DNA of 64,000 nt from assembly GCF_000003815.2 (NCBI RefSeq), contig NC_049997.1, forward strand, positions 7,186,695 to 7,250,694, given 5' to 3'. The translations under genes were made by a program, and so were the position numbers. Shown in pieces: positions 2,047 through 42,096 of the stretch. The notes below the pieces were generated by a model. It saw only the letters and a list, made by a program, of their open reading frames with translations. It made no database searches and was not told where the DNA came from. The DNA comes from Branchiostoma floridae. Taxonomy: Eukaryota; Chordata; Leptocardii; Amphioxiformes; Branchiostomatidae. Each line of letters begins with the position of its first letter. Position 1 is the first letter of the stretch.

Positions 2047-2049
2047 CGT

Positions 2050-11392: not shown

Positions 11393-11395
11393 TAA

Positions 11396-12492: not shown

Positions 12493-15400
12493 GTAAGGAA
12501 GCCAACGCGTTTGCCCCCCTCCCCATGAATTTGGTCGACGGGCAGTCTAGAGATTCCGTATCTATGGGTGGACGTTTCTACTTCTATCTTTTACCTGTCC
12601 ACCTAATCTTACATGTGAAAGCTAGAAGCAGAAACGTTCACCCATATGGAGTCTTATTTTACATTTATTACATTACCTTTATTGTACATGCATGCGTCAA
12701 CAGTTAGGTACAGGTCACTCATAACAGCTAGACATATGCAGAAAAGCAATAAGATATTATTTAAGTATTTAAAGGCATACTACGCAGTTTTTTGCGCTCA
12801 AATTTGAAATATTCTAGAATTAAGAAATATCAGATTTACTACTACTTTTTGTCACTTTTTGACACTTTTGTGTCATTATTTCACGTCTGCAACGTAAAGG
12901 ATTAGCCTACAAACATTCCGCTCTAGGCACCCTGTAACCTTGTGTCCCCCCAACATGCCCAAGTTAGACCCTCCGGGTCTTGCTTGCCACTGGTAGGTCC
13001 CCCGGGGTGGGGTAATCAGTTAGCACATGCATGGCAGACTGCAGATAAAGAACACAATGGAGATCTTCTTTAGAAACACCTATATCTAATCATTCTAAAA
13101 TAGCATATAATCATGAACTTTTCGTAGGATATCAACAAGCTGAGGTCATATTCCCTTCAAAACTGCAAGAAACCTTGTACAGAAAGCTAGTCTACTGTAC
13201 TCAGAGGAACTGTCAACTGGCCCCCCACTGGGAAGCCAGGCTGATAAGCAAGAAACAACAACACACAGAGGCAGTAACCAGCCTGTGCCCATCTGTTTCT
13301 TGGAAGATCACAATTTTTATACATCATGCTTATGTGGTGCATTGATGTCGCAGCACCTCCCCTGAATATTGGTATGCAATGCTATAGGGTTGATTGAACT
13401 AACAATGTAAAGAAAAAGTAGGAAAAGCTACTTTTTGTTTTGTTCAAAAATCCCGTAGTATGTGCTAAGTTGCTAACCTAACAGGGTTTCTGTACTTCCC
13501 AGGGTTGGGGCTGTGCATACAGAACTCTGCAGTCTCAGTGTTCCTGGGTTCACTTCAAGCAGAAACAGACGTCCACCAACCCCAGACATCCTCCTACAAT
13601 ACTGGACATCCAGAGGGCACTTGTGGAAATGCAGGACAAGCCAGCGAGCTTTGCAGGGTCCCGGGACTGGATCGGGTCTGTGGAAGTTGGCCTCTGTATA
13701 GACTATTTTTATGATGTGAGTTTGGTAATGTTACAATGTTTTAACTTGAAATATCATTTTAGAAGTACTCTCTATTTTGGACTTAATATTTGGATTTTTA
13801 ATTGGATTTAAGGACTGCAACCTGCTAGCTGCCATGCTAGACAGAAATGTCTGGAGCAGCATCATTTGTGGCACCTCGTACTACAAGGATAAACTGAACT
13901 GAACTTAATTTTGTATTAGGTAATATTAATATTTTTTTTATGTTTCCAGGTCCAAAAGTAGAGAATACATGTACACGATCTCATTGTTGCTACAAAAGGC
14001 ATGATTAAGCTAAGGTTGCAGGACAAAACCTCCTAAAAGTCCCTTTTACAATACATATGTTTTACTCAAAACTGTTTTCTTCCTATGCTCTTTGTAGGTT
14101 CCTTGTAAAATTGTACATATCAACAGTGGCAGAGACATTCCAGACAAGATTCCAGAGCTGACAGAACATTTCCAGAGCATAGGATCCCCTGTTATGATGG
14201 GTGAGTGTGGCAGAAGATGATAGTGCACTGTTGTATGAGAGCAAGCCTCTTTGCAAAAGTAGCTTGCAGTACTTGCCTCAACTGCTAGGAGCAGGATGAT
14301 GACCATGTTTTTCTGCATCTGTGATGTTATAAGCCAGTTGGACCTATTTTTATCTTTAATATTTCATTCATTCCTTTAATATTCCATGTCATAAGGAAAG
14401 CTGTATTAATTACATAATTTGTAGTGACCAATTTTTGTGTAATTGCCTTCCTTCATTTTAACGTAATACATAGGAAATTCATCTGAGTTTAGTGTATTAA
14501 GCATTATCAGGAACCTTCCATGCAGACGCTCACTAGTGGGTCCCCATACATTGGACCAAAGGCTTAACACCACCTCTGAAGACCCTTAAGTCATCTTAAC
14601 TTTTCCTTGAGACAGGTTGTTAGGGCAACCATATTTTGTAGACAATATGTTGTGTTTTGATTTTCATTTGAAGTAGCACCATATCGTGTCTTTGCTTGAC
14701 AGCTTAAGTGAAGGTATTGTCCAAAGGAATCATGTCAAGAAAGTTGCATGGTAGGAACTCAGGAACTTGACTTGCTCAATGTCAGATAGGTGTCACATTT
14801 AACAAACATACCTGTATCTGCCATCAGTTTTTTTTTTTACATCATGGCAAGGGCACAGACTGATTGAAGACTAGTCTTGATCATCAACTTTTCATCAGCC
14901 AAATGAACTAAATACAAATAGGGCTGTAAGATTTGTAAAAAAAAACATGTACATTGTGTGTAAAGTTTTGCTAATAGTTATTTCTTACAATGTCAGGACA
15001 CATACGCCCAAATTTACGAATTTCTTGTTGGACTAGTCAAAAAGTAGGTTAGGTAAATGTAGTCCCATAGCCTGTTTGAGGCTGTAGGGACAGTGGGCTG
15101 TTAACCCGTTGTGTCTAGAACATCGTATTGGGAGGGCAAAGCCCAACCTCTTTCCTTCCACCACGTTTTACCACCAGTCTCTAACAAGTGTCAGGTACCC
15201 ACATGTACACCTAGATCAAGGAGCTTTTATCAGATAAAAGCTCCTTGCCTAGATGGAGTGAGAAACGTGTCTAGTGCCTTTCTGACAGATACAGCTCTAG
15301 CCAGGCATTCCAGGAATCAATCCCACATGCTTTCAGCCTCACATCTGTTAGCCTAGCCACTTGGACATTCAACACCACAGCAGTATATAGTAAACCCCTG

Positions 15401-18400
15401 CTTAGCCTATTGAGTCAGTGAAGTCAACCTTGCCTAAGCTTGATGTTTCTGACTTAGGGAGAAGAGATGCTGCTACAGTTATCACTATGGGCCGCTCTTC
15501 ATCTTCATAACATCAGGCCCTATGAACCTGATTTTTTTTAAAAAGGAAGAAGAACAAAGTGGAAGAAATGGAAGAATTCAAGGACAAGGGTTTCATACCC
15601 AGGGCTCGAAATACCACCTGCATATGCAGGTTAATGCAGGTATAATTGGTGTCTGCCTGCACCTAACCTGCACTGGTCCATGTACTGAGTTTATACATAA
15701 ATGTCATATGATATAGGTGTATATGTGGATTGTTATTAGCTGCATTGAATGTTGCCACCTATAGAAAGTATAAAAGAAAAAAAATTGGAATGGTTCCTGA
15801 ACAATTTTAGTATGATCCATACTTCCTACATTGAGAAGGTGCAGGTAAAATTTGTCGGGTGCAGGTAATTTTCAATGTTACCTGCAGCAGGTATGCTGAA
15901 AAAGTATTTCGAGCCCTGATACCCCAATACAGCTGGTTTAGGGTCATCACTGTAGCTCAGGTATTTCCATTATCAGGTAGATCCATTATCTAGTGAATGC
16001 AGTCCCAGAACAATTCTAAAGGCCGAATCTCTTACATAAGGTGTTCAATTATTAATCATGCAGTTCCAAAAATCATTTGTGCCCTTTTCTAAAGTGATGA
16101 AGCATCATAAGCTGATGACAAAGGCGCTGGTGTGACACCAGGAATGTCGCTTCATGCATTTTTCATGATTGATGTATCTTAACATCAAATGAAAATATGT
16201 GTGATGTATCATCAATGGCTTAAACCAGCCCACCTGTTTTGTACAGGTACAGGTGTGTTTTACAGGTGTGCACAGGGTACTCAAGTACAGGAGGGTTCCA
16301 GATTATACAGTACTATACGAGGGGTGATCAATAAGTCCTCGGCCTCATTCAGAAATAATAAGCACAACTCATTTCGAAGCATAGATGTCAAGTGTATATT
16401 TAAGTCTTTCATGAATGTGTACCAAAATTCAAATTATTGTGATCATTACTTTGCAGGCGACACTCAGTAGCGTTAGGTAAGGTAGAAGGGGAAAAACTTG
16501 ACAATTGAGTTGCGACCTGAGGTGTGCGGGTCAACTTTCGCTGCTGAAAGTCAGACAGACACTTCTTTCTGCTTGAAATTGGAAGAGAATCATTATCAAA
16601 TATTTTGACAATGTCTTTTGTTAATGACAAAGGATTTACGGCATAGGGAACTCGACCCACACATGTCTGATCACAATTCACCCTTGTTTTTCTCGCCACT
16701 TACCTTCTGATTTGCAAAAACCGAATGCCTGGAAAGTAATGACTGCAATGATTTGAAATTTGGAGGGACAAAAGGCCTCATATTATCAAGCTGTGCCTCA
16801 AAATTTGAGTTGTGCTTATTATTTCTGAGTGAGGCCGAGGACTTATTGATCACCCCTCGTATGTATCTTTTCCCACTTGTTTTGAGTTGGACAATTTGAC
16901 ATCTGTTTTGGCTGCATTCCCTTTCCTAAAATATTTAGCACTCGTTTGTAAGGACGGCTGTGACCCATGACAATATTTCGCACAAAAAGTTGCCTCTTAT
17001 GTAACAGTTATGGTTGTGTAATTCCTTTATTAAACTACTGAGCATAGAGAGGAAAAAAATCCATAAAATGTCCATTAGAAAGAAAAAAAAATCAGTGATA
17101 TTGCAGCTGCTAATGCATTTTTAGTTCCTTACAAAAGGTAATGGCCAAAAATAAGTGTCCAATTCTTTGATTTATTGTGTGTCTCCCCTAACACATAGAA
17201 AAATGGCTCCAGCTGCTTTTTTGTTGTTTTTATCTGGCTATTTTGTTCTGTTTTGTTTTGTTGATGTCTCACAGCCTAACAGTACAAAAAAAGCCCAATA
17301 AAAACACCTTAAAAAACATCAAAAGACAGATGGAGCCTAACCTCTGCTTGGAGAGTAGTGAAGAAAAATAGTCTCAGTACTTTACAAATGGGCTTAAAAT
17401 ACATAAACATGAACAGGATGTCTTGCTATTGTTGTACCTGTAGGCCCAACCCCATAGAAAAAACAGAGATAGGCATTAAAAGAATCCAGGGTTGCCATAT
17501 GGTTGTGCTGCGATGCTTTGCATGTCAATAAGTCTAAATCCAACTATATTCTTACAGCTGTTCAAAAAATAGCTCAGAACTTTTGTTTGTAGACTGCAAA
17601 CGTTTTGCAATTTTCTAAAATGTTTTCATCCCCATGGTACAAAAAGTTCTCAGATTTGGTAATACCATTACCAGTTATCAGGATATAATGCTTGAAGCAG
17701 CATCATGTATTAAATAAAACCATTGAGGTATGAAGCAGACCAATATGTGTGTTGACAAAGTCAGTGACAAGTGCTGTTGTTTTGTTTTTTACAGAAGACA
17801 TGCTTTCTTTTCCTTTCCTAAAATCATAAAGTTTAATGTATCATAGACAGGACTTAACTTCTGCAACTCTCTTATGATAGACGTGATTTGTAATGGAAAG
17901 AACAAGGTGCAGCAACTCTTAAACATGACAGAATTTACATTACGTACGTAGTTTCCTGAAAAACAGTTAACCACGAAAACAAAGTAGAAAAACTCCTTCT
18001 GTAAGACGTGCTTAAGGTCCTTGCCCTGTCTCAGAAAGATATCAAATTACTTGATTGTTTCTTGCATAACGTGACTGGCATGCCCCGAAGCTTTATCTAT
18101 TGTTCCCCATCTCTACAGTCAGAATGATTAATGGACTCTTCTTCACAGCACAGCCTTTTTTGCCCGCAGTCAATTCTTTTCATTGTACCGTCTGAACGAT
18201 GGACTAGTTACAGGACCACAACGCCTGATAACTGTTATTTACAACGAAGACTAAAATTTGGGTCAATTAAGTCAGAAACCTGAAATTTGTAGGTCTTACA
18301 AACTAAGGTGTTGTTATGATATTATAGGTTATAAACGTTTACGTTAAGGATTTGTTGTAAATCTACAATCAGGTGAATTGGGATTGTGACATTGTATCTT

Positions 18401-20446
18401 CACCTGGATTGTTGTGATTGTATCCATACATTTGTTGTAAACAATGTGTACTAGTATCAAATAATTACAGCTACATGTACAAGTCATGTCTTTGTAATCA
18501 ATTATTACCAAAGTGCAGCAATATGTCTCACAACATAATGTTTTCAAGACACTCCAGAAAACCTCAGCCACCCTTAAGGATATATTGGTCTTATGTTAAG
18601 ATGAAAGATTAACAGTCTCTGGGTAAAGTGATTCTTAATTCTAGAGAACCACTCGAGGATGTGATGTGTCATGGTGTGGTGTGATGGTTCACAAAAGATT
18701 CTATTGTGTACTGAACAATTTGTGTCCTTTAAACCCTCAGGGAAGAACAGTGTTTCAAAGGTTCTAAACGACCCACAGGACAAAATGACAGGTAAAAACA
18801 GCTCTGAAAGACAGCTCAGGACTATGGCATGTTTTAGACTGATTGTATGTCTACTATTCACAGTTCCATGACGATGGTCAATCTTAATTACTGGTCTCTT
18901 AGTTAATTTTTCCCACTGACAGTTTATAATATAGTGACCACCTGTCGACATAGACTTGATTGTGTTGATCCTGAGTGGTCTTCTTTGGCAGCTGCAGTTT
19001 CCACAGGACTTATGTTTTTCGACTGATTGTATGTCTACTATTCACAGTTCCATGACGATGGTCAATCTTACTGCTCCCTTTTAATAGATAATTTTCCTCA
19101 CTGACAGTTTATATATAGTGACCACCTGTCGACATAGACTTGATTGTGTTGATCCTGAGTGGTCTTCTTTGGCAGCTGCAGTTTCCACAGGACTTATGTT
19201 TTTAGACTGATTGTATGTCTACTATTCACAGTTCCATGACGATGGTCAATCTTAATACTGGTCCCTTGGATAATTTTTCCCACTACCAGTCTATATTGAC
19301 CACCTGTCGACATAGGCCAAGTGTCAATCCCGAGTGGTCGTCTTTGGCAGCTGCAGTTTTACCTTTACCGTGATCATGACTTTGTTCTTATACACACAGA
19401 TACGGAGTGTCATTCAGTCTATGAATTCTACGCAAGCTAACGGCAAGACTATTACAGTACGTAATAGGTACAATACAGAATACTGCTCAAAAACAGTTGA
19501 CATATAAACATACGTTACAAGTTTATCTAATTTAGAGAAACTACTTTTTTTTTACAGATACGGTAGTTAAGCTGTAATATCTAAAGTTATGATGATTTCG
19601 AATTCACTGTTTCTTTTTCCCAATGCGTGCAGGTGGAGATACAGATAACTCCTCCAAAGGCATATTTGGGGTTTGTGGATCAGGGAAAAATTCATACCTC
19701 CTAATTGTAGTAAGTATTTGTTAACTGTTTGCTAGCAGTTATCATATTCAGATTCAAAAATTCATTGCAAAGTTGCATGTACTCTGGGACAAAAGTTTTT
19801 GAAAACTTTTTTTTTATATCTTTCCATTCCATTTATAGACTTTTCCAAGTACATGTACTTTATATATGTTTTTATGTTTTTGTCAATAGTTTACACCTGT
19901 ATTGTACTTTTATGTCAATACAGTCAAGTATACCTCCATAATGATGTGACATATGATGGCACGATCGAGACACAGTTTTTCCCGATATCTACGAGCCGAC
20001 AACCTCTCGCCGACAGTTTTTTGTTCAGCGTCTAGATGGAACTGCAATATCGCCATAAAGATATCGGCAGAATTTCTCCCGAATTGTCCGGAGCATTCAC
20101 CTGATAGCTTAGCAGGGGTCCCTGACAACTTCTGCCCGAGTGTAGATGCGTCCCAACTTCGGGAGGGCTCAGTAGCATATAGCACGGGCTCATTAGGCTA
20201 GATAGCTGTTTATGACTAGATCCCTCCTGACATATCCACAGATATCAGTAAAAATTGTGTCTAGATTGGGCCTAAGTCATTGTTGTTTTGTAAACAGTCA
20301 CTTGTGTTTTTCAGGACCCTCACTACCATGGTGCGGTCCAAGACCCCCTAGCCTTGCAGCAGAATGGCTGGGTGAAGTGGCAACATGTCGAAGAATTCAA
20401 GTCAGATTCCTTCTATAATTTCTGCCTTCCCCTTTACAAACAATAA
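12343..20446 (+). CDS. UFSP1: UFM1-specific protease, UFSP1-type, complete in five exons
   Basis: Cysteine protease that matures the ubiquitin-like modifier UFM1 and removes it from targets. Exons are 12343-12492, 13503-13715, 14098-14200, 19633-19709 and 20315-20446. They are joined by GT/AG introns in compatible phases (0, 0, 1, 0) to give 224 codons and a stop; human UFSP1 is of similar size. Residues ~38-50 read [13 protein letters not shown], then [10 protein letters not shown] with nucleophile Cys54. Next come [17 protein letters not shown] and G-S-P-V-M-M-G-G-D, then Y-L-L-I-V-D-P-H-Y with Asp182 and His184. Near the end are N-G-W-V-K-W and S-F-Y-N-F-C-L-P. All catalytic elements are present. 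The short length without the long N-terminal domain of UFSP2, and G-G-D after P-V-M-M, favour UFSP1. An AATAAA lies at 20449-20454. Intron 3 (5.4 kb) holds most of the mobile elements. Confidence 0.94.
13503..13715 (+). CDS. UFSP1: UFSP1-type protease exon 2 with catalytic Cys
   Basis: Bounded by TTCCCAG|GGTTGG and TATGAT|GTGAGT, 71 codons. It begins [10 protein letters not shown], the active-site signature, and includes S-R-D-W-I-G-S-V-E, a second family hallmark. Both boundaries are in phase 0, so it is a symmetrical exon. Confidence 0.93.
13815..13910 (+). mobile_element. Short 3' end of a LINE-like element in UFSP1 intron 2
   Basis: Matches the last ~90 bp of the LINE C-terminal fragment at 58660-58910. 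It encodes [10 protein letters not shown] then W-S, and both copies end in GAACTGAACTGAACT. It is severely 5'-truncated, as non-LTR insertions often are. Confidence 0.7.
14098..14200 (+). CDS. UFSP1: UFSP1-type protease exon 3
   Basis: Starts after CTTTGTAG and ends at ATGG|GTGAGT in phase 1. It encodes a V-P-C-K-I-V-H-I strand, [10 protein letters not shown] helix and G-S-P-V-M-M, the family's strand leading to the Gly-Gly turn, completed across the intron. Confidence 0.92.
15217..15247. mobile_element. 31-bp palindrome with 7-bp target duplication (excision-footprint-like)
   Basis: Near-perfect palindrome starting CAAGGAGCTTTTATC and ending in ATAAAAGCTCCTTG. It is flanked by CCTAGAT at 15210-15216 and again at 15248-15254. 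The same palindrome (33 bp) at 35736-35768 has its own, different 7-bp duplication. Confidence 0.85.
15600..15918. mobile_element. hAT-like MITE (about 319 bp)
   Basis: Ends CAGGGCTCGAAATAC and GTATTTCGAGCCCTG form a 15-bp terminal inverted repeat. Flanks share ATACC, a partial target duplication. The interior is rich in CCTGCA/TGCAGG words (ACCTGCATATGCAGGT and similar), giving extra internal palindromes. No coding frame. It lies in intron 3 of the protease gene. Confidence 0.78.
16318..16859. mobile_element. Mariner-like MITE (542 bp) with TA target duplication
   Basis: Terminal inverted repeats of about 55 bp: CGAGGGGTGATCAATAAGTC at the left and GACTTATTGATCACCCCTCG at the right, flanked by TA at 16316-16317 and 16860-16861. 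These ends are typical of Tc1/mariner elements. The interior lacks a transposase frame (no D-D-D motif region), so it is non-autonomous. It lies in intron 3 of the UFSP1-type gene. Confidence 0.92.
18838..19360. repeat. Three tandem copies of a ~183-bp sequence
   Basis: GACTGATTGTATGTCTACTA starts copies near 18838, 19021 and 19204. Each runs through ACCACCTGTCGACATAG and GTGGTCTTCTTTGGCAGC. Copies are over 90% alike except the third, whose end is shorter and more diverged. It is intronic, with no coding frame. Confidence 0.88.
19633..19709 (+). CDS. UFSP1: UFSP1-type protease exon 4
   Basis: Starts after GCGTGCAG and ends at ATTGTA|GTAAGT. It encodes [13 protein letters not shown] and Y-L-L-I-V, the strand preceding the catalytic Asp-Pro-His of exon 5. 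Confidence 0.92.
19960..20200. other. GC-richer island in UFSP1 intron 4, unidentified
   Basis: Within the AT-rich intron, this segment has a different composition and a minus-strand open frame of about 90 codons with hydrophilic residues. I do not recognise a domain. It may be a fragment of a mobile element. Confidence 0.3.
20315..20446 (+). CDS. UFSP1: UFSP1-type protease exon 5 with Asp-Pro-His and stop
   Basis: Starts after TGTTTTTCAG with D-P-H-Y-H-G-A, supplying the catalytic Asp and His, continues with Q-Q-N-G-W-V-K-W and F-Y-N-F-C-L-P-L, and ends at TAA 20444-20446. A polyadenylation signal follows three bases later. Confidence 0.94.
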   Translation, partial: DPHYHGAVQDPLALQQNGWVKWQHVEEFKSDSFYNFCLPLYKQ

Positions 20447-21608
20447 CAAATAAAGTTCTAATTTTACAGTTTTGTTCTTCATTCAGTTTTATAGATATAA
20501 TGTACTAAGTCTTCACTAAGTTAAGCCACAAACAATCCATTATACTGGATTTGTGGGTATTATTAAAACAAAATGGGACCTACCAGCTGTTTTTGAAACA
20601 CACATTTCATGTGCCACACATGATATCGTCTGTAGACGTGCTTACACACAGCGGGGTTATACCGCCCCTTACGGGGCTTTTGCTGGCTAATTACAAGACG
20701 GGGATTTGCCAGGTCTCCCATCATGATGTACAAAAATACTTGAAAAGACCTTGAATTTTTTATAGACCGGCATAATGCTGTAAACCCACATAATGCTACT
20801 CCAATTCTGTATTTTTCAACATGGTTATTTTATTCATTGGTTTGACTGAAATAGTCGACAGCTATTTAGGGCAATTATAGAGTTATAGTGAATGGACACT
20901 CAGTACCATCTACATTTGTAAATCCCAAGTCGAACACCTTAACCACAAAAGCCCACCTTTTCCCCTCTATGGTTAACGTTTTTAACAATCATTAAGAGAG
21001 ACAAGTGACAAGTTGATATCAAAGCATGGTGTAAGAAACTTTATTGACAGACAAAGGTTATTATTGCATAGCCAGTAGCCTCTTCACAACTCTTTATAAT
21101 GGTACAGTCGGTCATTAAGGCACGCGTGAATTGCACAAGAGATAAAATGATAGTCACACCTATTAAACTAAAAAGTACAACATAAAAAAGCATGGACAGT
21201 CTCGGAAGCAAATACTGGTCGATAAAGTCACTGTAGTCTACATTTGTTTTTGTTTTTCATCGAGACGTCATCGCTACTGAACCTGAAAGGTTGAAGTAAC
21301 TCAAACTCGCTGACCAATGGTATGAAAGCCAGGTGTAACAGGATCTAGTGGTGCATTCTGATTGGGTAATCTGTTAGACTTCTGACCAATCACAATGTTC
21401 GCTGTCACAAGTTTAGATGAGTTCTAGTTAGTGAAAGTTTGTGGATGTTTAGTACAGTTCACAGTAAGATTACTCGTTCCAATTATCATAATTCTTAGAT
21501 GTGAAACTAAAGGGGTCCGCTTCCCATGCAGCTACATCTACATCTGCCAATCACAGTGCTGGAATAATTTGACGTGGATTCTGATTGGACGTTGACGTGA
21601 TGATATCA
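20447..21608. other. Intergenic space and 3' UTRs of two convergent genes
   Basis: Holds the UFSP1-type AATAAA (20449-20454). For the minus-strand mini-mucin there is a probable polyadenylation signal read as TTTATT at 21040-21045 and a 3' UTR up to the stop codon at 21609. No other gene seen. Confidence 0.5.
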
Positions 21609-21676
21609 CTAGCGGAAGAAGGCAGCCACGGCAGAAAGCAGCAGCATCACCAACTCAGGTTGCACAAAGCCAGTCC
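21609..21676 (-). CDS. Mini-mucin exon 3: GPI-type C-terminal signal
   Basis: After ACACAG the exon reads T-G-F-V-Q-P-E-L-V-M-L-L-L-S-A-V-A-A-F-F-R and stops at TAG (21611-21609). The other family member ends Y-L-A-A-Y-F-R. The region around its acceptor is duplicated about 100 bp upstream (21765-21850). Confidence 0.82.
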
Positions 21677-24600: not shown

Positions 24601-27600
24601 TTACCAACAAACCCCAGCGGTACAATAGTAGTTAAGCTATATAGTTAGCAATTCTGAGGTAGAGGATGGTCCAATTTGAGCAATGTCCTTTGATCTTTAA
24701 AAAAGGGATGATTTCTAGATAAAATTATGTCATCTAGACGTTAAACCAAATGTTTCAACCTTGCATAAATTGATACGATTACCCGTCCAATATCATTATA
24801 GTATCACAACTATTCACTTTTGTATTCTGTTGCTGAATATGACAAAGTGACCTTGGTTTAACTTGGAAGATTCCTTCACCGATATTAGCACTTATATAAA
24901 GGTATATAAGTGCAAACTTCACTCTACTTGTGTCATTTAGCCTCTAGCCACTGAAGAAGCTGTACATAGCGAAACTAGTTTGGCTGACAGGTTGAATAAA
25001 AGTTCAGATGGCTCCAGATGTCTTTCTGAGGGACGACTGCAGCGTGCAAGATGTCGGTAGCTTGAGGGATGAATCTACTCTACTATATATTCCTTCACCG
25101 ATATTGTCACAGATGCATGTTGACACCAAACCCGAAGGTAGACTGTACGCCTGTATGCACCGACTTCACCAATGCCTGGTTCCATTTGGAACATTCATGT
25201 CATAGGTCACACGTAGCGCCTTGGGGGACACCTGTCTTTGTTCTGAACACATCACTTATTAATTATTCAGTTCCTTATATCGAGTCATTCTTTCAAATGT
25301 TATCCCCCAAGGGTATGATATTTGTGAGGAAAAGAGAACAAAAAGAGGAACTTTTGAAACTCTTACGTGCATGATTTGGTTGGCTTCAAGAGTGTTTGTG
25401 TCTTAGTTATACATAACGACTGATCTTATCACAATTAGTGCATGACTGCACGACAGCTTCTCGCCAGATATCTTTGGTATTAAGATTAGTGAACTAAGTT
25501 AGTTGATGAGAAAATGGTGCCTTCTTGCTTCAGATTTTACTTGGTTTTAAGATATTTTGAGGCAACCGCCTAACACAGCGGATCCAAATAGGTTTTAGGT
25601 GAAACAGGCCAACCATTGATCACATACCAGTAACCAAGCATTCTACCCTTAGGCAAAATATGCTTTCGCATAGATTACTTGTTTGGGTTGACGTCTCACA
25701 ACAACACTGACTGTATGATCTTTTCAGTTTCAGCCCTTTTTCTGCCGGCCTAGGCTCTAGATATTTTCGTATCACCATTTTTGCTGCATCATTCTTTAAT
25801 GAACAGTCTTCTTTTAACCAGAAAACAATATACAAACGATAGATATTCACAAAAAAAGCAGAAATACGACCAGGAGTTTGCTATGGGTCCGTGATCTTTG
25901 TTTACAGTGGTTACCACCACACTTGGAGGGATCAAGGCTGCTCTGTGGTGGGATGGAGGGAGGATTTCCCGCCATGGGAACGAGGGCTGTCGCCATGGCA
26001 ACACAGCCTCATTGTCCACACATGAACACCTGGGGGATGCCGAGGGCGTGTACATTGGTTCTGGCATCTCGCACCGGTATTGGGGGAAATTTTGTCTGTA
26101 GGGACTATCAAATGCGTTTGCCAACAATTACTCAAAAAGTTTTTTAAAACTAGCAGTTCCATGAATTATGAAATCTTATAAAGATCTGTTCATAAAAATA
26201 ACTATGCTGTGTTCAGTAATCATTTTAAAGATGCGCACTGCTGGCACAAGAACACCCCAAAGCTAGCGTTCCCGTTCGTGTGGATGTGTGCAAGGACATT
26301 ACATACATGATATAACGTTACATACATAATGTGTGCAATTCTAGCCGTTCGACGACTTTCTTTTTTCTTAGCGAGAAAAGCTAATCCCGTGTCGTGTTGT
26401 TTGTGACTTGGCACTGTGTGACAGGTGAAGCGGACAGACGTGCCACTCTCCAGTACAAACACAGCTTCTTTACTGTTTACGTTCCGTCTGAAACCATGTT
26501 ACATGGCGCACTAATCGATCTATACCGTCTAACGCTTAAACACGTAAGGAATAGCCTGTAGCGAAGTGTGCTGGTGTAATTAAGTGGGAGAACAATCGCT
26601 AGGAGAGTTTGGCCACCATATTAAAAAGCCGGTAACCTTTTGTTACAATACCGTCTTGTGGACTTGCTACCCTGACCAATTGTCAATTATTAGTCATACA
26701 TGATTTTTCCAAATTCTACCATCCATAACTCCTTATGAAGGTTTGCTGAAGCGCGCGTGTAGTAAGTGTGCGCTCTAGGTAGTGTTTTCCCGCCAGTGTG
26801 TTAACCCATGCAGAAACGAGTGCACGTGGCATTCAATTTCTACAAGGAGGTTCTTTTTTTAACCTCCCTGATTTCTACAACAGACGAAATGCTGTGGAGA
26901 TCCCTTATTCAGTTCACCACATCACGTCGGGCCGTCCCCAGGGAGAGGGCACGTTGGCGCCAACTGACGCCAGGTAAAACCGCACACACACAGGCGCATC
27001 CAGGTGAGTTAATCCCGCGCCCTACCTGTGGACGGACCGGCCTTTGTTTGCCTCCTAGGGGTATGACTCAGTTCCTGTCTCATAAATATGGCCGGAAAAT
27101 TCCACTTGGTTTAAGGCAAGGAGGTTTCAGTACCCCACGCCAAGCATTTTTTTTTTTTTTGCCTTCTGACAAATCAGAATCTCTCATAAAAATTCTGCGG
27201 TTTGTTTTACGGGTGTAAAATAGTGAAATCATCACCCGAAAAATATGTCGAGATTTAAACTAGCCGTTTTCTTGTTCGAGAGCTGGTTTCTTGAAACAGG
27301 GTGTGGCAGGTGGTTCAAGTGTTCAACCAACAATTGATTACGGAGATAATAATCAAAATTGGACCGTCCAGAGGTTACCAAGTACCCAAACATCGTCGCC
27401 AGGACTGCCTGGTGATGTTTTTCGTTGTTTGGCGAGAAAATTACCTCACCCTTATCGACCTGTCACTCAAATTGGACCGGTATTTACCGTTGGTTTGTCC
27501 ACGCTTCAAATGGCCGCACGCAACCACCAAAACGTGCTCGAACGTACGCTCGTAAAAAAAGCGGGTGAAGAGATGGTATTCAACAGGTCAATTTAACAAA

Positions 27601-28006
27601 ACGAGTCGTGCTGTTGAATCAGAGACGTAAGGGTGATGGTTTCAGAATTTAATTTGCTCACAGTTCCTGAATTTACATTCATTTCCTTAATACGCACCCA
27701 CGTGTGAAACCACTACCGCTTTTCTGGGTTAAACCTTAAAAGTTTAAACGCTGAGGCTTGAGAAAGGATTGTAATTCGATGAAAACGAAGTACAAATATG
27801 ATAAAGCTGTGCTAGTGTTCTGTAGTTAGCGCTGCCACGTATATCCTTGTCGGTGAGAACAAAGCCGCACACTTTTAGCACACCTGGTGCGGGCGCCTCA
27901 CCAGGTGACACAAAAGTACACAATTTCACACACAAAACCTTAACAAACACGACTCCATACAAGTATAATCTACAGAAGGGAGCGTTTTGCTTACCTTGTT
28001 GAACAT
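21609..28006 (-). CDS. Secreted 64-aa mini-mucin with GPI-anchor-type tail
   Basis: Three exons on the minus strand: 27995-28006 (M-F-N-K), 22172-22286 and 21609-21676. They have consensus sites (AAG|GTAAGC; CCTTCAG|ATCGTG; AGCG|GTATGT; CACAG|GGACTG) and phases 0 and 1. Together they encode 64 residues. Residues 1-22 form a signal peptide (I-V-T-V-C-V-L-L-L-A-I-V-A-V-A-F-A) with likely cleavage before Gln22 or Asn23. The core of ~20 residues is rich in Thr, Ala, Pro and Asn, with two N-glycosylation sequons (N-S-T, N-A-T). The end, P-E-L-V-M-L-L-L-S-A-V-A-A-F-F-R, is a hydrophobic tail after small residues (A-S-G-T-G), as in GPI attachment signals. The plan resembles vertebrate CD52 or CD24, but I claim no homology. 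A paralogue lies at 54.6-55.9 kb. The 5.7-kb first intron is large for so small a protein. Confidence 0.8.
21665..21850. repeat. Tandem duplication across the mini-mucin exon 3 acceptor
   Basis: AAGCCAGTCCCTGTGTCA.. GTGTCAGCAAAATCAT..CTACTGTA at 21668-21725 recurs as AAGCCAGTCCTTGTGTCA with ..CTGTCAGCAAAATCAT at 21776-21845. The second copy retains a decayed exon edge and a possible alternative AG. Confidence 0.75.
22172..22286 (-). CDS. Mini-mucin exon 2: signal peptide and glycosylated core
   Basis: A 115-nt exon coding the hydrophobic signal core and the N-S-T-A-A-N-N-A-T-M-A-P-T-Q-A-P-T-T-A-S core. It ends in phase 1 at AGCG|GTATGT. The open frame running on past the donor encodes unrelated residues and should not be used. 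Confidence 0.82.
23770..24020. repeat. ~31-bp minisatellite, about 8 copies
   Basis: Unit GAGTAACAGGCTAGAGATGT plus GCCACACTGT. Variants alternate CTAGAGATG and CTAGCGGATG. A single copy of the unit occurs at 37838-37869 beside a related tRNA-like sequence, so it is a module of a dispersed element that has been amplified here. It lies in intron 1 of the mini-mucin. Confidence 0.85.
24020..28000. other. Mini-mucin intron 1, no further exon recognised
   Basis: Apart from the SINE-like copy, no exon or complete element was recognised. A phrase near 24950 (CACTGAAGAAGCTGTACATA, then GCGAAACTAGTTTG) resembles the tail of Penelope-type elements, but this is weak. Open frames near 25.1 and 26.8 kb show no domain. 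Confidence 0.35.
24075..24290 (+). mobile_element. tRNA-derived SINE-like element, copy 1
   Basis: A perfect T-arm-like hairpin with B-box, CCCGGGTTCGATCCCGGG, at about 24192-24209, preceded by a GTGGTTTTGCTGCTGAG segment resembling a degraded tRNA 5' half. It is followed by CTGTTCCTACTCGTCCCTCT. The same modules occur at 37640-37830. It is not a functional tRNA because the acceptor and D arms do not pair. Confidence 0.55.
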
Positions 28007-29605
28007 TTTGGCGAGTTTTTTGCTGTTTTCTCGGTAGTTTCCGAAGATAAAGCACAGAGAGCTGGTGACGAGTCTTGTTTCACGCAAGCCGCTGGGAGCA
28101 ATGAGCTGGATGTCAGACAGATGAGCTCATCCTTAAGTTGGGCGACTACAATTGCTCGGGGAAGAGGGGAGAATTATTTTATAAATTCTACTATCTTCTT
28201 TCAGTCTGTTTGTCTTTAAAATCATTAGGGTCAAAACTGATTCCTTATGAGCCGAAACATCACACAAATTGACTGATTTTCTAATATTTCTGTATGAATA
28301 TTACATAATTTTGAAGATATCTCCCTATGATTTAATGGTACAGGCTAATACACGTAACGTACAGGTAAGTATTTTTGGCGGACAAAATCCAACCGCCTGA
28401 TATCACGTGGCCCAATCAGTGAGCTCGTTTCAAATATAATCATATCGACGGTCGGTATTGCAACAGAACAAGCAACCTATGACCTTTAAGCTCTCCACAC
28501 GATTTCACCCACGTGTATACCTTAAGTATATAACGTTAGGTACTGTAGTAAGTATACACATGCTAGAACTTGTATGGTCCCTTTTGACCATGGTAAAATC
28601 CTTATTGTATCCATAGATATCAGAAATTCAGTGTGTGGATATTAGAACATTATGTACTGCATACAATCTCACCCGACGTTACTCTTTTTTACCTTAAGAG
28701 ATACCTAACGTTAGATGCCATAGACTTTACACTAGGTATAGCTATCATTTGTTGTTAATCACAGCGTCAAAGGCAGTTGGCCGTTGATATATAGCGTCCT
28801 TGGTCGTGTTAGTAACTCTTATCTAAACCCCGTCCTTCCAGTAGAGCCACACCTTCAGCACGTTTATCTTAAGTTGAACCCACCACACAAGCGCCACTTA
28901 TTGATAGAATAAGAGTTTAGGGTACGCCCCATGTCTTGTAAGAGTTAGAATAAAGCCAGGTGTGTGAGTACTAGGTACGCCCTAGTGTTGGGCCGGCAAC
29001 CAGTGTTAGCCAAACCCAGACCCATCAACACATTATCACTGACCTGGTACCATGGTGCGTTACGCCCTTAGGCGGTTCAACGGTTACACAACTCAACCCC
29101 TCCCAAAAGAGGGCTTAAACCATTTGCACCTTCTAATCACTGCTTTTGCTCCGCAATTGTAAAAAGTGTGGCAATGAAAAAGCATTGCCATGGCGACGGT
29201 AATATTGTTTGACTTTTTTGTAACGTATTGTATTGTATGTTGATAGAGATGATTGAGGAATTGTATGCTTGGTAAGTCATGATGATGTTCCGGGCTGTAT
29301 GTGCTAGTGTCGTAGTGTCGCGATACGTTGGCTTAATGTACTGTGTAGTATGATGTTGTTGATACACAAGTTAAGTATTATCATGAAGAAATATCAATAC
29401 AATTAAACTAAAATTAATATGATTATGTCAAACATGCTACATGTTACATTGATATTTTGCAATAATCTGCGCCTGGCCAGATAAGTGTTTATGGCAGCGG
29501 TTCCAAGGAATCAAGGCATCTGGCCAATGCTGCAATGTTGATGTAGGTATATGAATAAGCCATTCTATAACATCTGCTCGAAGATCAAGAGCTAAACGAC
29601 CTTCT

Positions 29606-29980
29606 GTGGCATACAGGGAGATAGACAGTTACGGTAGGTTGGTACTTGCGGGTAAAAACTTCTCGGTTCAGTTGAAATACGGGTCAAAGTTATGTGCGTT
29701 TCGTGGATCTTTTTCCCTGGGAGACAGCCGGGATCGAGCCTGGTTACCACACCGCAGCCCAATCTCAATATCTATCGTGCAGGGGTCTGGCAGGATGACT
29801 GTAGAAAGGCTCTCCAAGGCCCTTGGTCAGAGAGAGGAGAACCTAGGATTGATAACCACCCCAGGTAGCCAGCTACAACACACCACAGTTGGTCAGCAGG
29901 CTATTGTAGTAGCGAATCAGGGACTAGATATGGCTCAAGGGTGTAATGAGCTATTTTTCAAAATAACAGCAGAACTTTAA
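29606..29980 (+). other. Unassigned 124-codon open frame
   Basis: Open from an ATG at 29606 to TAA at 29980. The second half (G-R-M-T-V-E-R-L-S-K-A-L-G-Q-R-E-E-N-L, then I-V-V-A-N-Q-G-L-D-M-A-Q) looks protein-like and hydrophilic. I recognise no family. The surrounding sequence is GC-richer than average. It could be a fragment of a mobile element or an exon of an unknown gene. Confidence 0.2.
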
Positions 29981-31371
29981 GGCTGGAACTTTGTAAGGTC
30001 CACCTGCCCTTTCCCCCAAAAGGGTAGCGATAACTCCTTCGGGTTAAACTCCCCCGGAGCGCTAATGTGAGATCGGCGGGCTGACTGGCTTGGTTCCCCG
30101 AACTAAACTCGCTAGCTACCCGGTCCTGTCTGGCTCCCAGGGTATGGATCTTGAAACGTGCTAACTGTGATTAAAACGCAAACGGACACTCCTTCGTCGG
30201 GATATTCCTATTTTGAAATACTCCCCGTGGAAGTAGGGCATGATCATGATACAGAAGCCACTCTTCATGCCGATTTAGTTTTGTTCCGTGCTACTCAGTG
30301 TACATGACGACCTGTTCGATGTGTGCCCTGGTGGTTTGTGATCTAGACGAGAGTCCTGTTTACGCCTGCCCTCTAAATGATTTCTTATCCCGAACTTTAT
30401 TCTTTATCCAAAAAAGGACTTCCGGGCCCTTGTCCCAAGAATTTTTCTAGCTTTTTTTTCCATACGTCCACGTTTTCGTGCAGCGACCTAGCGATGAACG
30501 TTTTGGGGGCCCAGAAGGATAGTGAGGTCGGGTTTACGTCAAACTGAAGGGTTTACTTCCTATGCCGGGACACGTGTTCGTCGGGCCCATGCCGGCCACG
30601 GGGTGCCACCTCCCCGCTTGCCGCTTGGTGACGTGGGTGGCCGGGGCCCTTTAATATCGGAAGCTGGGCGCTCCAGGGAGAACATGAGATGGGGCATCTT
30701 AGTTTAAGGTTATGTCAGGAGGAGGAAGAGACATGTCATCCTTTTGGGTAAGCGTGATTATCGTCGCGATGGTTCTGCTCTGTTCTGTGAGTGTGAGTGG
30801 TTCTGTTCTAGTGATCAGTGGCGGTTTGTTTACATCTCCGTGAAGGGGGGGGGGCGATTATGTGGTACTTATTTCCTCGAGGCCCTCCCTCATGGATGCC
30901 TTTGGTTATCACTTATCAGTAACGCATATTTTATTCTGATCTAAACAAACACAGAAACGCTAAACCATGTGTATAACGGTGGGGCACTACATCCTCTAAT
31001 CAAACCTCGTTGTGACTAGGACGTCCTCTCTTACTTGTCTAATATTTCTTCAAAACATTTACATCTTTCCAAATTATGCCTAACAACAGTTATGGGAAGA
31101 CCAGTATAGGATTCTATAAGAAATGAACCGTTAAACGCTGTTATGTGACCTTTGACCTTATAAAATACAACACGGCTGATCTCATTGACCATATTTCACC
31201 TTGAATTAAGTTAAACAATTATAACCGTCCACAATGCCCCATCTGCAAGACCGAGCTGAAGTTAGCAGCCCGTTTACCAGCACCAGTTGTGGCACGTAGA
31301 CACCACGCACTCGCAGTTGCACGTACGTCGGTTTGTACCCTTAGCTTTAAAATGGTCAGACCAGTCCTGCT

Positions 31372-32235
31372 ATGTATCTCAAGAACATCTTGATGTTTGA
31401 GTCTACACGACATGAAGAGTGTATTCATGTTTACTGTACTATACCTTGGACATTTTGTATCAAACACCCTAAGGTGCAACACGGTATCTTTAAGCTATAC
31501 TACGTAATGTTTGGACAATACAGTATGTTTTTGTTGGGTTTCGCCTGCGTGCCTGTCTTGATCAGGCGGTCCAGGGCGCGACTCATCTTTAAGTCGATCA
31601 TACATGAATGTTGTGATCGAGGCACACCTCTCGTAGCTTTCTTAGCCCGGCTTGCACCGAATGGTTCTACAACTTACATAGAAATAAACGTTAAAAGGGG
31701 AAAATTTGTCATAACATGCCGGACTCAGTCCTGCATGGGGCTAATAAGTCGTGTATGTGTAGAGAGTCGTGAGCATGACAGGCCCATTTGTCACACCGAC
31801 TCAAAGGGTGACTACCACATTCCAAACCAAAGATACTGTAAGTCGACAACGCATGATGAGTGTGTTCATGTTTACTGTGCACTTGGGGAAGTTTGTATCA
31901 AACACCTTAAGGTGCAGCAAAGTAACAGTAAAGATCACGGCGCTGCAATCCATGAAGATCGAGCGGGTACAAAAATAACCTGGAATCCAGTCTACCGTGG
32001 ATTGGCCAGGCTAACTTCGGGACAGGAGAGTCTTTCCACCGCCGGGGTCATATACAATGACAGCAGACGAAAAACCAAAATACTAGTAGTGCAATTTGGT
32101 GAAATTTCACCACATTCGCAAGCGTGCCTCTATTGTCTCTCACCGGACATTTGTATCATGTATCTGTCTCGTGATATGTTCTGGTACTTCCCACTTGTGG
32201 CTATGCCTTGTTTGTTCATTCTCAACTTTCTGTGA
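31372..32235 (+). other. Unassigned 287-codon open frame with internal duplication
   Basis: Longest non-repetitive single-exon frame in the region. It contains two related segments ~450 bp apart, H-E-E-C-I-H-V-Y-C and H-D-E-C-V-H-V-Y-C, each followed by C-I-K-H and K-V-Q. At DNA level these are the 31400-31480 and 31850-31930 direct repeats. The frame is cysteine- and histidine-rich but matches no domain I know. It lacks the flanking splice or promoter features of a gene, so it may be a chance frame in a duplicated non-coding sequence. Confidence 0.2.
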
Positions 32236-32736
32236 TGAATGTGAGCACTCATTTGTTAGACATGAAAATGACGTCTAAAATAATAGGTACAACCACACCT
32301 GGAGGCATAATAAGATCTTCACCTTACGGAGACTCATGATCAGCATAGAAAACTTAGTTTCTACGTGTTGTCGGGCGTGTACGGGGGTTGAAGTCTGTAA
32401 TCATTACTGCTTTCGTTGGGTGTTTGGTCAACGCTGCGATATCAAAATTCCCCCGTTGCCTATTTATACAATCAAGGATAAAACCTTACAAATGTGGCCT
32501 TACAAGAGGGTGGTAGAATGCCTCGCGGGAGGTATTCATTCACACCATGTCGTGTAACAGTTCTCTCGAAGGCGATTAATCTATATGCAAAACAAATGGC
32601 TTCTGCTGTTAGGCCGACAAAAGATCTCTCAACGTTATGACACCGGCCTTTTCCTTTGATAGCGATATGTGATGTGTCGAGCGATTGCATACCAAAGGAA
32701 GTTCTCACTGTAGCCGCCCAAGTAATACTAGTAGTT

Positions 32737-32836
32737 AGATCATGGGAGTGGCCTGACAATGTGGGGACCCCAACAAACTCCAAGGGTGGCGGAGCAGTAC
32801 TAAATCCACATAGTCAGACCATTCCCAGGATCTAAC
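32737..32836. mobile_element. 100-bp MITE with ~30-bp inverted repeats
   Basis: Starts GATCATGGGAGTGGCCTGAC and ends as the imperfect complement (GTCAGACCATTCCCAGGATC). A related piece in opposite orientation lies at 38843-38912. No coding capacity. Confidence 0.72.
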
Positions 32837-33246
32837 TGACTTAGAACATGGCCATCTTTCCGAAGCAAAAATACACTTTTTTTAGTCATTGAGAAACATG
32901 CAGTTTTCCTAGCTAGCGGACAGACAGGCTACATTCTTCTCCTATTTCCCATTCATGACCCTGGTGATGGCGCCTCACACCTTTTGCTCATGAGGGTTGT
33001 GTGAAATTCATGTCAGGTTTTACAACACTTTTTTGCACCACAATGCCATTGTTTTTTGGGTGTATGTCAGTTTGATCCCAGTTCCCAACCTGACCTCAAA
33101 TGAAAGGAGTCGGCCCAAAATTAGCACCTTGCCGCGGCCTTTGTTTTGCGATGTTAAACCCTGCTGTGTCCTATTGTTCCGTCGTGCCGGCGGCAGTCCT
33201 TTGTAAGCCATGTTTGACTCCCCATAAAAGCCGCATAATGAGCCAG

Positions 33247-33397
33247 TCATGACCTCATGGCAGCGGCAGGGACCGAGGCCGGCCCTATTAGAAGTCCAGC
33301 ACCGGAAAAGTTAAGCACTGGAAATCCAGTGCTCGCATTGGGTTCAGCACTGGAATTCCAGTGCTGAGGGAGCATGAGCACTGGAACAAGGCCGTTC
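33247..33397. repeat. Left copy of a 150-bp direct duplication with AGCACTGGAA repeats
   Basis: This block (ATGACCTCATGGCAGCGGCA, AGGCCGGCCCTATTAGAAGT, then CAGCACTGG/CCAGTGCTG palindromes) is repeated almost exactly at 34110-34270. A retroelement fragment lies between the two copies. Confidence 0.88.
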
Positions 33398-33399
33398 GT

Positions 33400-34109
33400 T
33401 TCTTTGTGATATTGAAAATGTAAGAACAGATATGCTTTATAAGTAAAGGTTTGTCTAGATTCATAAGGAATATAAATTTGTCTATATTACTTAGTTGTAT
33501 GAAGTGGGGGAACATGGATTCTATTAGTCTGTAGAGTTCAGCTCTCTCTTTCTTGTACAAACTACATTCTACTACAAAATGGTGTTCGTCTTCTAACTTA
33601 TCTAGATTGCAGTATCTACATATTCGTTGTTCTAGAGGAGTGCGGTTATGTCTTCCGGTTTCGATGTGTAATTTGTGGCAACTGACTCGTAGTTTTGTGA
33701 CGGCCGTCCTGTGCCGAATATTGTCAATATCCAGGTATTGTTCCACATTATAAGTGGACTTGAACAGTCTGTAAGACCTCAATTTGTTTTTAGCGGATCC
33801 ACCTTTGTTGTCATTGTGTATCTCTCTTAGAAAAGTTTGAAAATAAATGTCTTTCAGACGCTGATTGATAGAATTGATAATTTGAGACGAATTTGTATTG
33901 TGCTGTAGAGGACAATGCCATACATAACCATAGCCGCATTCCTCCAGTGATTGGCGAACTCCTGACGCCCAACACTTGGCTCCAGCCTTGTCTAAATCTA
34001 TCTGGCAAGAAAGAGCGTCTGACTGGAAACTGTCTGCTGGTACTTTCTGGCGAAGTCTAATTAAGTGTTTAATAGCATTTAGGGAGGCTTCCAAATGAAT
34101 GGGGAACCT
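33400..34109 (-). pseudogene. C-terminal fragment of a retroelement polyprotein
   Basis: A minus-strand open frame of ~235 codons ends a non-LTR-type protein. It has I-R-H-R-T-A-V-T-K-L-R-V-S-C-H-K-L, E-T-G-R-H and P-L-E-Q-R-I-C-R-Y-C-N. These are followed by L-E-D-E-H-H-F-V-V-E-C, the Cys-Cys-His-Cys zinc motif common at the C-terminus of such reverse transcriptase proteins. Upstream of these is a K-L-R-S-Y-R-L-F-K segment. No reverse transcriptase core remains. The original stop is replaced by readthrough into the AGCACTGG repeat. A more decayed relative lies at 37860-38260. Confidence 0.78.
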
Positions 34110-34375
34110 CATGACCTCATGGCAGCGGCAGGGACCGAGGCCGGCCCTATTAGAAGTCCAGCACCGGAAAAGTTAAGCACTGGAAATCCAGTGCTCGCAT
34201 TGGGTTCAGCACTGGAATTCCAGTGCTGAGTTCCAGTGCTGAGGGAGCATGAGCACTGGAACAAGGCCGTTCAGCACTGGAAAACCAGCGCTGACGTTTG
34301 TTCAGCACTGGAAAACCAGTGCTGAGGCCGATTCGACCCATTGATTCAGCACTGGAACACCAGTGCGGAGACCGT
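34110..34375. repeat. AGCACTGGAA/TTCCAGTGCT palindromic minisatellite and right duplication copy
   Basis: Right copy of the 33247-33397 block, continued by further TTCAGCACTGGAAAACCAG, CGCTGA units. Each unit is a small palindrome (CAGCACTGGA..TCCAGTGCTG), so single strands could form a row of hairpins. Confidence 0.85.
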
Positions 34376-35246
34376 TACTTTTGTATACTTGCTTGTCAAT
34401 AAGAGTGAACAATAAAAACAATGCCGATAGTCGGTTGGGTGTATGTAAATCAAGACCAATTTGCACCTTAATGTTAATGTTTTTTTTTTCAAAAGTGAGT
34501 CGAAGATGGTTCAAAAGGGACAAATTATGAGCCGACTCCTTCCCCTCTTTCAACCTCCTTGGTAGGACGTGGCATGTCTGGAAGGCCAATTTCTCGAGTA
34601 TGTTCAGCCGTTTTCACAGTATGTTAGGACGAGTTCCGTACACAGCCCGACACGTCTGAGTTCCAGCTTGAGCTGGCGGACGTTTTGCTGCAGCCTATTG
34701 GCATCTCTGCCGAACTGTTCTGTAGTTTTGATACTGACCAGTTCCTGCCAGACAGACCGGCCAATGTCGCTGCCCCCTCCCCTATTTCATTCACCCAGCT
34801 GGTGCAACCGTTCTGACGAGCTGTCCTGTTCCCAGTTCGACCCCTTCCTGGTAGACCACATCATGCATTATCTTCTGCAATTTTAGTATGTTTCTCGTTT
34901 ATGGAAGTATTAATTGTATGCCTCACGTTTGCCTCGTTTTTATCAATTTAACGCGCATGATTTTATGTAGCATCTCTACTTTTTAAAGTTTTTCTTTACT
35001 ATTTTGGAACTTGTTCCCTAGCTTGATGTAACCAAGGAGGTTATATTTTTCATGTCTTTGTTGTAGCGCTGTTTGTACATTTTCTTGTTACAAGAAACTT
35101 TTTATTATTGTCTTGTTCGTTTTCTGACTTTCTTTCATGACCGTTAGAATTTACTTTGTTTATGTTATGAAGAAAGATGTTCAGTAACATAGGTTGATTT
35201 ACTGTTTCCATTTTTGTTAATTCTTTAATTGCTTTTATTTGCATGA

Positions 35247-35395
35247 GAAAGGTGGGCGTCTCCAACTTAGTCAATTTATTCGTTGGTTGGTACATCCCTA
35301 CGCCTAGGGAGACCAGTCAGTTGAATGGTGGACGTCTCCAACTTAGTCAATTTATTCGTTACTTAGTACACCCCTACCCCTAGGGACACCATACT
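35247..35395. repeat. Two tandem copies of a ~76-bp sequence
   Basis: GTCTCCAACTTAGTCAATTT, ATTCGTT, TAGTACA.CCCTAC, CCTAGGGA occurs at about 35257-35312 and again at 35329-35390 with a few changes. Confidence 0.8.
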
Positions 35396-35735
35396 ATGTG
35401 GATTTAGAATACTGGATGTGAATTAGTTTTCTTCTGATATAACGGCAACTGGGAAATACAGACGGGATCCCGTTCTTGTATACGCGAACGTGTAACACGT
35501 CTGCAGGGACACCACCCAGGGAAGTTTAATACCGGATAGGACATGGGTTAAAATCCCTGCTAATTATCAACACTAATGGTGTCAAAAGGTTTTGAGCGTT
35601 CTGTTTAATTATCTTAAATGTAAAAGTACAAAAACTTTTCAAATCCCCGGGAAATAAGAGAATGTGCATGTTGTCACCCGCAGATTTTCATGCGCAACTT
35701 TTCACGCACACAAAACCCGGGCATCTCTGTTAGCG

Positions 35736-35768
35736 CAAGGAGCTTTTATCAGTGATAAAAGCTCCTTG
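35736..35768. mobile_element. 33-bp palindrome with 7-bp target duplication (second copy)
   Basis: CAAGGAGCTTTTATCA, G, TGATAAAAGCTCCTTG: a 16-bp inverted repeat around one base. It is flanked by GTTAGCG at 35729-35735 and 35769-35775. Same sequence as 15217-15247 but at an unrelated site with an unrelated duplication. Confidence 0.88.
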
Positions 35769-36539
35769 GTTAGCGTAAAAGTTTAGATGTGAAGTCTTGA
35801 ATTTTCGTGAAACATGCATAAAAGTTCCGTTGTCGTGGTTTTCTAGGTGTTTGGTCGACATACTATCTATCTGACACAGTGACTAAATTTGTCACATCGC
35901 CGGATTCTGAGAATCATCACGATAATTTTTGCCATCTGTTCTACTCTTCGTTCCGTACACCTACAGTGCAGTCAAGGCCACTCTGACATTTCATACGTAC
36001 CCCCTGGCCCTAGCCTGTGTTTACACAAGCTCTCTCGCCGGCTGGGCTTAATGACCCCCTCCCCATAGGGTGGCGGCAATTGTAGGGCCGGCCGCTAGGG
36101 GCTTGATTTTAGTCAGGCTACCCCTGGCCCCAGCCCTGGTCGTAACTCATTTTCTGTGACAGCTAATTGCAGCAGATTTGGCCAAACATCCTCCCCTGAT
36201 CTCTGGCATCTTTGAACCACAACCAGATTTTTTGCCTCCATGGTTTCGGCTTTAAAAATCTCCAAACCGTGCTCATGTAGTGTCATGTCCCGTGCCTTTT
36301 CTTTGCCAAATTGTACCAACCCCCTTCCCCACCGACTCACGTTAAACATTCAAGTTGAGAACGGAGTGCCAGAGTGAATCGTGAACCTTAAATCGTTTCT
36401 GCCATGTTTGGGTCAAATCATGAGGTTTTGTTAGATCATTCTACCTATGCACAATGCATTTCTTTCCCGCTATAGTTGCAGCGTGTAACATGGATACCCT
36501 AGTTCTCTCTGTTAAAATGTCAATACATTCGTGTGTGGT

Positions 36540-42090: not shown

Positions 42091-42096
42091 TCCTCC

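Follow-up and report, generated by a model that had tools for sequence, protein, structure and literature searches.

Palindromes in the Branchiostoma floridae genome as probable excision scars of a P-superfamily transposon with a RAG1-type N-terminal domain

Introduction

Several described systems bear on the short palindromes reported here. P transposase, according to an excerpt of one study, cuts 17 nt inside the element and leaves a 17-nt overhang (PMC7776569), and its catalytic residues are named D230, D303 and E531 in an excerpt of another (PMC8230255). The target site duplications (TSDs) of Galileo are given, in the portion of the source available, as mostly 7 bp with the pattern GTANTAC, and rarely 8 bp (PMC4168063). 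A RAG1 N-terminal-like domain is encoded by the Aplysia transposon N-RAG-TP, as outlined in excerpts of two reports (PMC8355894, PMC2996935). The Chapa domain, a truncated RAG1 N-terminal domain, is present on the transposase of the Chapaev/TransibSU/ProtoRAG group, and the available part of a 2015 analysis states that the Chapa domain and RING finger are not encoded in transposable elements outside the Transib/Chapaev group (PMC4411706). Among the matches listed, the titles and abstract openings returned by a literature search mentioned neither a RAG1 N-terminal domain on a P-type transposase nor P scars in lancelets, and a search with the literal element sequences gave no title on these elements among the matches listed.

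Results

Palindromes in the window

The window, by which we mean the whole 64,000-nucleotide stretch of DNA analysed (C19:7186695-7250694), belongs to a genome searched over 513 Mb in 431 contigs. A first-pass annotation had noted the same palindrome at 15217-15247 and 35736-35768, lying between 7-bp direct duplications that differ between the two sites, together with a half copy at 42097-42112. Reading of the sequence confirmed both palindromes and their duplications; the half copy is an exact match and forms the end of a longer element at 41551-42112. A looser palindrome scan added a third, related site that had been overlooked, 26843-26870 (CAAGGAGGTT...AACCTCCCTG between ATTTCTA copies). 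The features concerned are as follows:

15210-15254: probable excision scar 1; TSD CCTAGAT at 15210-15216, 31 bp of joined ends at 15217-15247, TSD CCTAGAT at 15248-15254
26836-26877: probable excision scar of a sister family; TSD ATTTCTA, CAAGGAGGTTCTTTTTTTAACCTCCCTG at 26843-26870, TSD ATTTCTA
33102-34561: remnants of a sister (C11-type) element, identified by BLAST to L069; pieces at 33102-33258 and an end at 34523-34561
35729-35775: probable excision scar 2; TSD GTTAGCG at 35729-35735, 33 bp of joined ends at 35736-35768, TSD GTTAGCG at 35769-35775
41490-42119: possible aberrant excision product; CTAGAAT at 41490-41496, 54 bp unmatched, the cut-short element, CTAGAAT at 42113-42119
41551-42112, minus strand: nonautonomous element, cut short; first 562 bp of a ~1187-bp element, with the end CAAGGAGCTTTTATCAGGAGGAGAGAG at 42086-42112
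C19:10308832-10317273 (L067:133-8574), outside the window: source element, 8442 bp, with the same ends and the TSD CTCTAAC on both sides

The first palindrome is arranged as 15+1+15, its right arm departing at the innermost base from the 16-nt end CAAGGAGCTTTTATCA; the left element end contributes 17 nt to it and the right one 15 nt, with one base in common. The second is arranged as 16+1+16. When perfect palindromes with an arm of at least 12, a loop of at most 12 and an exact 7-bp flanking repeat were required, two were found in the window vs none in 60 dinucleotide shuffles, and a chance origin was rejected on this count. A tRNA or other known RNA at the palindrome sites was likewise rejected; the known-RNA search yielded only mir-2060, a lancelet microRNA, elsewhere in the window, as three precursor matches in tandem order at 55093-55625.

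The cut-short element at 41551-42112 is 97.2-99.1% identical to L009-L012, L068 and L072, 94% to L071 and 82% to the 8.4-kb element, and is found among the listed extended ends of the genome (see below). Together with the CTAGAAT copies beyond it, it may represent an aberrant excision product; the left copy at 41490 could be due to chance, since this 7-mer is present four times on the plus strand of the window. The C11-type remnants match L069 at its positions 7956-8122 (77%) and 8102-8140 (92%), and a TSD looked for around 33102-34561 was not found.

Three further repeats were observed in the window. The palindrome at 34286-34310 (CAGCGCTGA...TCAGCACTG), flanked by copies of GGAAAACC, was considered as another scar and rejected: it has 736 close relatives of the form CAGTGCTGA..TCAGCACTG in the genome, which among the matches listed often stand in clusters spaced by ~31 bp, and it looks like a separate repeat. 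A long open repeated frame with units like QVTHPTGNICVALSSGD occupies 2037-4315 and ends in unknown bases, with similar units at 11295-11985, and long inverted repeats at 51515-52225 are apparently of the simple-repeat type.

Ends and scars across the genome

A genome search for the 16-nt end, as had been suggested with the first-pass annotation, returned 1108 exact copies (549 + 559) vs 0 (0 + 0) for the reversed control. Two ends of 15 nt each lie at most 60 bp apart at 190 places, the control giving 0. As an unselected sample, all 45 listed 16-mer places in C1:1-13,204,257 were grouped by hand into 39 sites. Scars of 21-51 bp between exact 7-bp duplications account for 21 of these, and scars with a 6/7 match in the repeat for three, two of which are one duplicated site; three are complete elements (1184-1188 bp) flanked by exact 7-bp TSDs, two are short palindromes with no TSD, six carry the end inside another repeat with the constant flank AGCTTCCAC, and four were left unclassified. 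Copies devoid of flanking duplications had been named in the annotation as evidence against its reading; among the 26 short joins of this stretch, 21 have exact 7-bp repeats and three have repeats matching at 6/7. Counted by single ends, 26 of 45 have an exact 7-bp copy of their flank 16-80 nt downstream, vs a permuted mean of 0.378; these 26 reduce to 21 sites, two being spurious and three scars having been counted by both ends.

At L001, L002, L005, L051, L055 and L062, AGCTTCCAC precedes the 17-nt end and related sequence, mostly with GTCCGTCAA-like motifs; this group is another dispersed repeat bearing the end.

Scar anatomy

From the loci fetched and the window, 46 distinct scars were assembled as 16-mer sites with a nearby flank repeat, de-duplicated by TSD plus sequence; chosen for that repeat, 40 have an exact one (one of them spurious) and six have one mismatch. 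The right boundary was misplaced in two listed cases: at L046 the 61 bp listed is spurious and 27 bp with a 6/7 repeat is better, and L084:101-131 (reverse strand) is a 31-bp scar with the 8-bp repeat ATTTCCGA. Scar length ranges from 21 to 51 bp, with fillers and one-sided erosion that differ from site to site, and the TSDs show the preference GTYNRAC. At L050:1501-1545 a scar was seen with two overlapping left ends in tandem and GTCTGAC copies on both sides.

Each end retains at most 17 nt among the 46 scars, except for one at 27 nt and three 32-mers that are equally readable as 17+15; as the 16-mer anchor sets a retention of at least 16 nt at one end, only the other end is freely sampled. 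With these few exceptions, the limit appears to match the 17-nt stagger of P transposase. The 50 listed of the 190 palindromes include 23 of 31 bp, six of 32 bp and 10 of 33 bp, and in nine of the 50 one end exceeds 17 nt, six of the nine being 32-mers and three possibly retaining 19-27 nt. The 31-bp form corresponds to 17 nt from one end plus 15 from the other, overlapping by one base, and the plain 17+17 join occurs at six places in the genome.

Empty sites and scars copied with their host repeat

Empty sites were sought by joining the flanks of each scar, a comparison between paralogous repeat copies within one genome. For 15217, this gave matches to an old repeat at 39 other places (within the best 40 of 313 candidates scored); 24 of them cross the junction by 27 nt or more and differ in length by -10 to +6, vs +38 for the window. 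For 35736, too, there were matches at 39 other places (within the best 40 of 97 candidates scored), of which 16 have the length of an empty site (295-303 bp), another 13 are longer by 35-37 bp and four by 46-47 bp, and six are partial. One empty copy (L093), when read, was without exactly the 33-bp scar and one GTTAGCG, apart from a separate 3-bp difference nearby, and two of the 17 insert-length copies, when read, contain the scar in the same place. Empty paralogues were also found for L012, L035, L045 and L054, in a set of 68 queries, some of which repeat the same site. The window itself has empty-site relatives of the repeats that host the L012 element and the L035 scar, at 15600-15868 and 61034-61145. 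Duplicate scar loci were seen in L018/L079 and L085/L086. The repeat in which the 35736 scar arose afterwards spread together with it, so that the numbers of scars are in part too high.

Longer elements with the same ends

The first-pass annotation had expected longer elements with these ends and 7-8 bp duplications, and such elements were found. The extended end CAAGGAGCTTTTATCAGNAGGAGAGAG has 74 genome copies, which form 30 facing pairs. Of these, 26 span 1179-1208 bp, and the other four measure 1371, 1547, 4111 and 8442 bp. The first four ~1.19-kb copies fetched have exact 7-bp duplications, one of them within a CA repeat, as does the 8.4-kb element. The ~1.19-kb elements are internally deleted derivatives of the 8442-bp two-gene element; one copy compared with it matches over the left 563 bp at 81% and the right 115 bp at 92%, and the repeat common to both element ends is short (~31 bp). 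Seven nonautonomous copies compared with each other are 94.8-99.7% identical, which indicates recent activity. Of the otherwise invisible active transposon family that had been postulated, long elements are present, "active" holding only in the sense of recent, with copies up to 99.7% identical.

A P-type transposase

The gene model of the 8442-bp element comprises six exons with GT-AG introns, whose borders were picked by conservation and open frame, and encodes an unbroken 1015 aa from a provisional start. Its Pfam matches are RAG1_imp_bd (1.1e-7), TNP-like_RNaseH_N (1e-21), TNP-like_GBD (4.2e-15) and TNP-like_RNaseH_C (4e-7). The last three outline a DDE core of the RNase H type, interrupted by a GTP-binding insertion, which is characteristic of the P superfamily, as are duplications of 7-8 bp. 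The catalytic part matches the Drosophila P transposase (PDB 6p5a, E 2.6e-11); this alignment places the aspartate of VSDGAS and the glutamate of QDPLEQHF on the P transposase residues, and the D of WDEMKI was assigned by its position within the RNaseH_N match. PF21787 has three matches in the whole genome, that of this element being the best. A search for inverted repeats around the transposase fragment on C6 gave nothing.

A THAP domain was found neither in the 1015-aa model with its provisional start (E <= 0.01), nor in exon 1 (E <= 0.1), nor in nine upstream plus-strand frames of at least 42 aa (E <= 1). The THAP/P-type transposase anticipated in the first-pass annotation was thus borne out in its core and not in its THAP domain, in place of which a RAG1-type N-terminal zinc domain was found. 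Judged from its sequence, the transposase is P-type by core and not a canonical THAP-bearing P element.

The RAG1-type N-terminal domain

Only in one element, the 8442-bp element of C19, does the RAG1-type N-terminal domain lie in the same open frame as the P core. PF12560 is above cut-off at three loci: C19 (E 7e-8), C11 (7e-10) and C17 (2.6e-12). In C11, domain and core occupy separate frames that overlap and meet at a repeated stretch, so that a frame break or splice must be assumed; a P core was not found at the C17 locus. A profile of the C19 and C11 domains matched RAG1 best among solved structures (21wb, E 1.2e-6), followed by two full-length RAG1 entries (E 1.3e-3); the C19 protein alone reached only E 0.22 against RAG1. 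Identity among the three domains is 55-60%, and to mouse RAG1 it is 28-32%; they are about as distant from RAG1 as from five other lancelet loci bearing the domain. A tree of the N-terminal domains did not separate their branching order.

The second gene and sister families

The 8442-bp element contains a second gene, convergent to the transposase, whose probable first exon encodes a C2H2 finger and which has a 362-aa frame; no relatives of this frame were found in Pfam, PHROGs or PDB. Between the C19 element and that of C11, the second gene shows 54% identity. The gene has 24 genome matches, of which six are long and open. A P core lies beside two of these six, those of C19 and C11, so its tie to the P core is seen in two families only. 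The C17 copy has only a RAG1-type exon nearby, ~16 kb away, and no transposase was found near the C1, C3 and C7 copies among the matches listed (best 59 of 136 candidates scored).

The diverged C11 element has the same parts as the C19 element, and its ends, CAAGGAGGTTGAA... at L069:183 and 8140, resemble those of the sister scar family; a matching TSD was looked for and not found. Sister-family palindromes (CAAGGAGGTT...AACCTCCTTG) number 1535 in the genome vs 0 for the reversed control, and show several different inner sequences among the 50 listed of 1535; their duplications were checked at one site, window 26843.

Discussion

The first-pass annotation had read the palindromes as P-type excision footprints, and the scar spectrum, the 17-nt limit, the long elements and the P-type transposase all support that reading. 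We consider it highly probable (about 94%) that they mark places where a P-superfamily cut-and-paste transposon was excised and the ends left behind were joined. Read directly were the element ends and their duplications, the empty sites, the spectrum of scars with its retention limit, and the source element with its domain content. Points against this reading are the two short palindromes with no TSD, the four unclassified sites and the six in another repeat among the 39, the three listed palindromes that may retain 19-27 nt, and the single element in which the RAG1-type domain and the P core share a frame. Cleavage by the transposase would free the 3' ends right at the boundary of the element and cut the 5' strands 17 nt further in, which would leave donor DNA with 17-nt single-stranded ends; these would be rejoined between the old 7-bp target duplications, often via pairing of one matching base to give the common 31-bp product, and sometimes with trimming or filler. 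The source would be the 8442-bp two-gene element in the same genome together with its ~1.19-kb internally deleted derivatives. The transposase of the C19 element probably made these scars, to which it is linked by common ends.

The alternative offered in the annotation, a very short mobile palindrome (here taken as a MITE of 31-33 bp) inserting as one unit and creating 7-bp duplications, would also account for palindromes that are numerous, TSD-flanked and absent at empty sites. However, the 46 scars vary from 21 to 51 bp, their fillers differ and their erosion is one-sided, and the 17-nt retention limit together with long elements bearing the same ends explains the length variation at once; we rejected the MITE as highly improbable. 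Equally improbable as a source is another superfamily with 6-8 bp duplications, such as hAT or Dada. CAAGG also fits a general hAT-type end and TSD length alone is not decisive, but the extended ends bracket a P-type transposase that is the best of only three PF21787 matches in the genome, and hAT excision is not known to retain 17 nt at both ends. A hAT-type source was therefore rejected. That some scars are copies carried along in an amplifying scarred repeat is, on the other hand, very likely and compatible with excision: besides the window, the dispersed repeat at 35736 has 17 insert-length copies (13 at +35/+37 and four at +46/+47) vs 16 of empty length, and the L018/L079 and L085/L086 loci are duplicates, although the set of 46 had already been de-duplicated.

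Under the excision reading, the scars constitute a natural record of P-type excision outside insects, from which cleavage offset and repair outcomes can be read in the genome. The RAG1-type domain on a P-type transposase reopens, in a testable way, the origin of the RAG1 N-terminus. The Chapa domain would correspond to the domain found here. One tentative scenario, which we regard as rather unlikely, is a P-type transposon lineage in which a RAG1-type N-terminal domain replaces THAP beside a conserved second gene, the module having moved between P-type and Transib/Chapaev elements; N-RAG-TP may then comprise members or derivatives, and RAG1 may owe its N-terminus to such an element.

Among known systems, the Drosophila P element (6p5a) is alike in its RNase H core with a GTP-binding insertion and in its internally deleted nonautonomous copies, and its ends begin with CA, as do those described here. 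It has an 8-bp duplication and a length of 2.9 kb, whereas the lancelet element has 7 bp and 8.4 kb and differs further in that no THAP was found, in its RAG1-type N-terminal domain and in its second gene. The 17-nt stagger of the P element, as described in the excerpt cited above, is in line with the retention of at most 17 nt in nearly all scars. Galileo and 1360, of the P superfamily in Drosophila, share a 7-bp TSD with a palindromic preference (GTANTAC vs GTYNRAC here), whereas Galileo, in the portion of the source available, encodes a THAP transposase and carries inverted repeats that are long and internally repetitive, the end repeat of the lancelet element being ~31 bp. Zebrafish Pdre2/THAP9 is similar in combining a P-type transposase with many short deleted relatives.

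N-RAG-TP resembles the lancelet element, by its description in the excerpts, as a transposon with a RAG1 N-terminal-like domain; what is described there is a RAG1 N-terminal-like sequence, whereas the lancelet domain lies in one frame with a P-type core. Chapaev, TransibSU and ProtoRAG have another catalytic core, and the lancelet element matched P-type core families only. The RAG1/Transib-type core of the Transib, Chapaev and RAG transposons was not found in it; Transib makes a TSD of 5 bp, and the lancelet element one of 7 bp.
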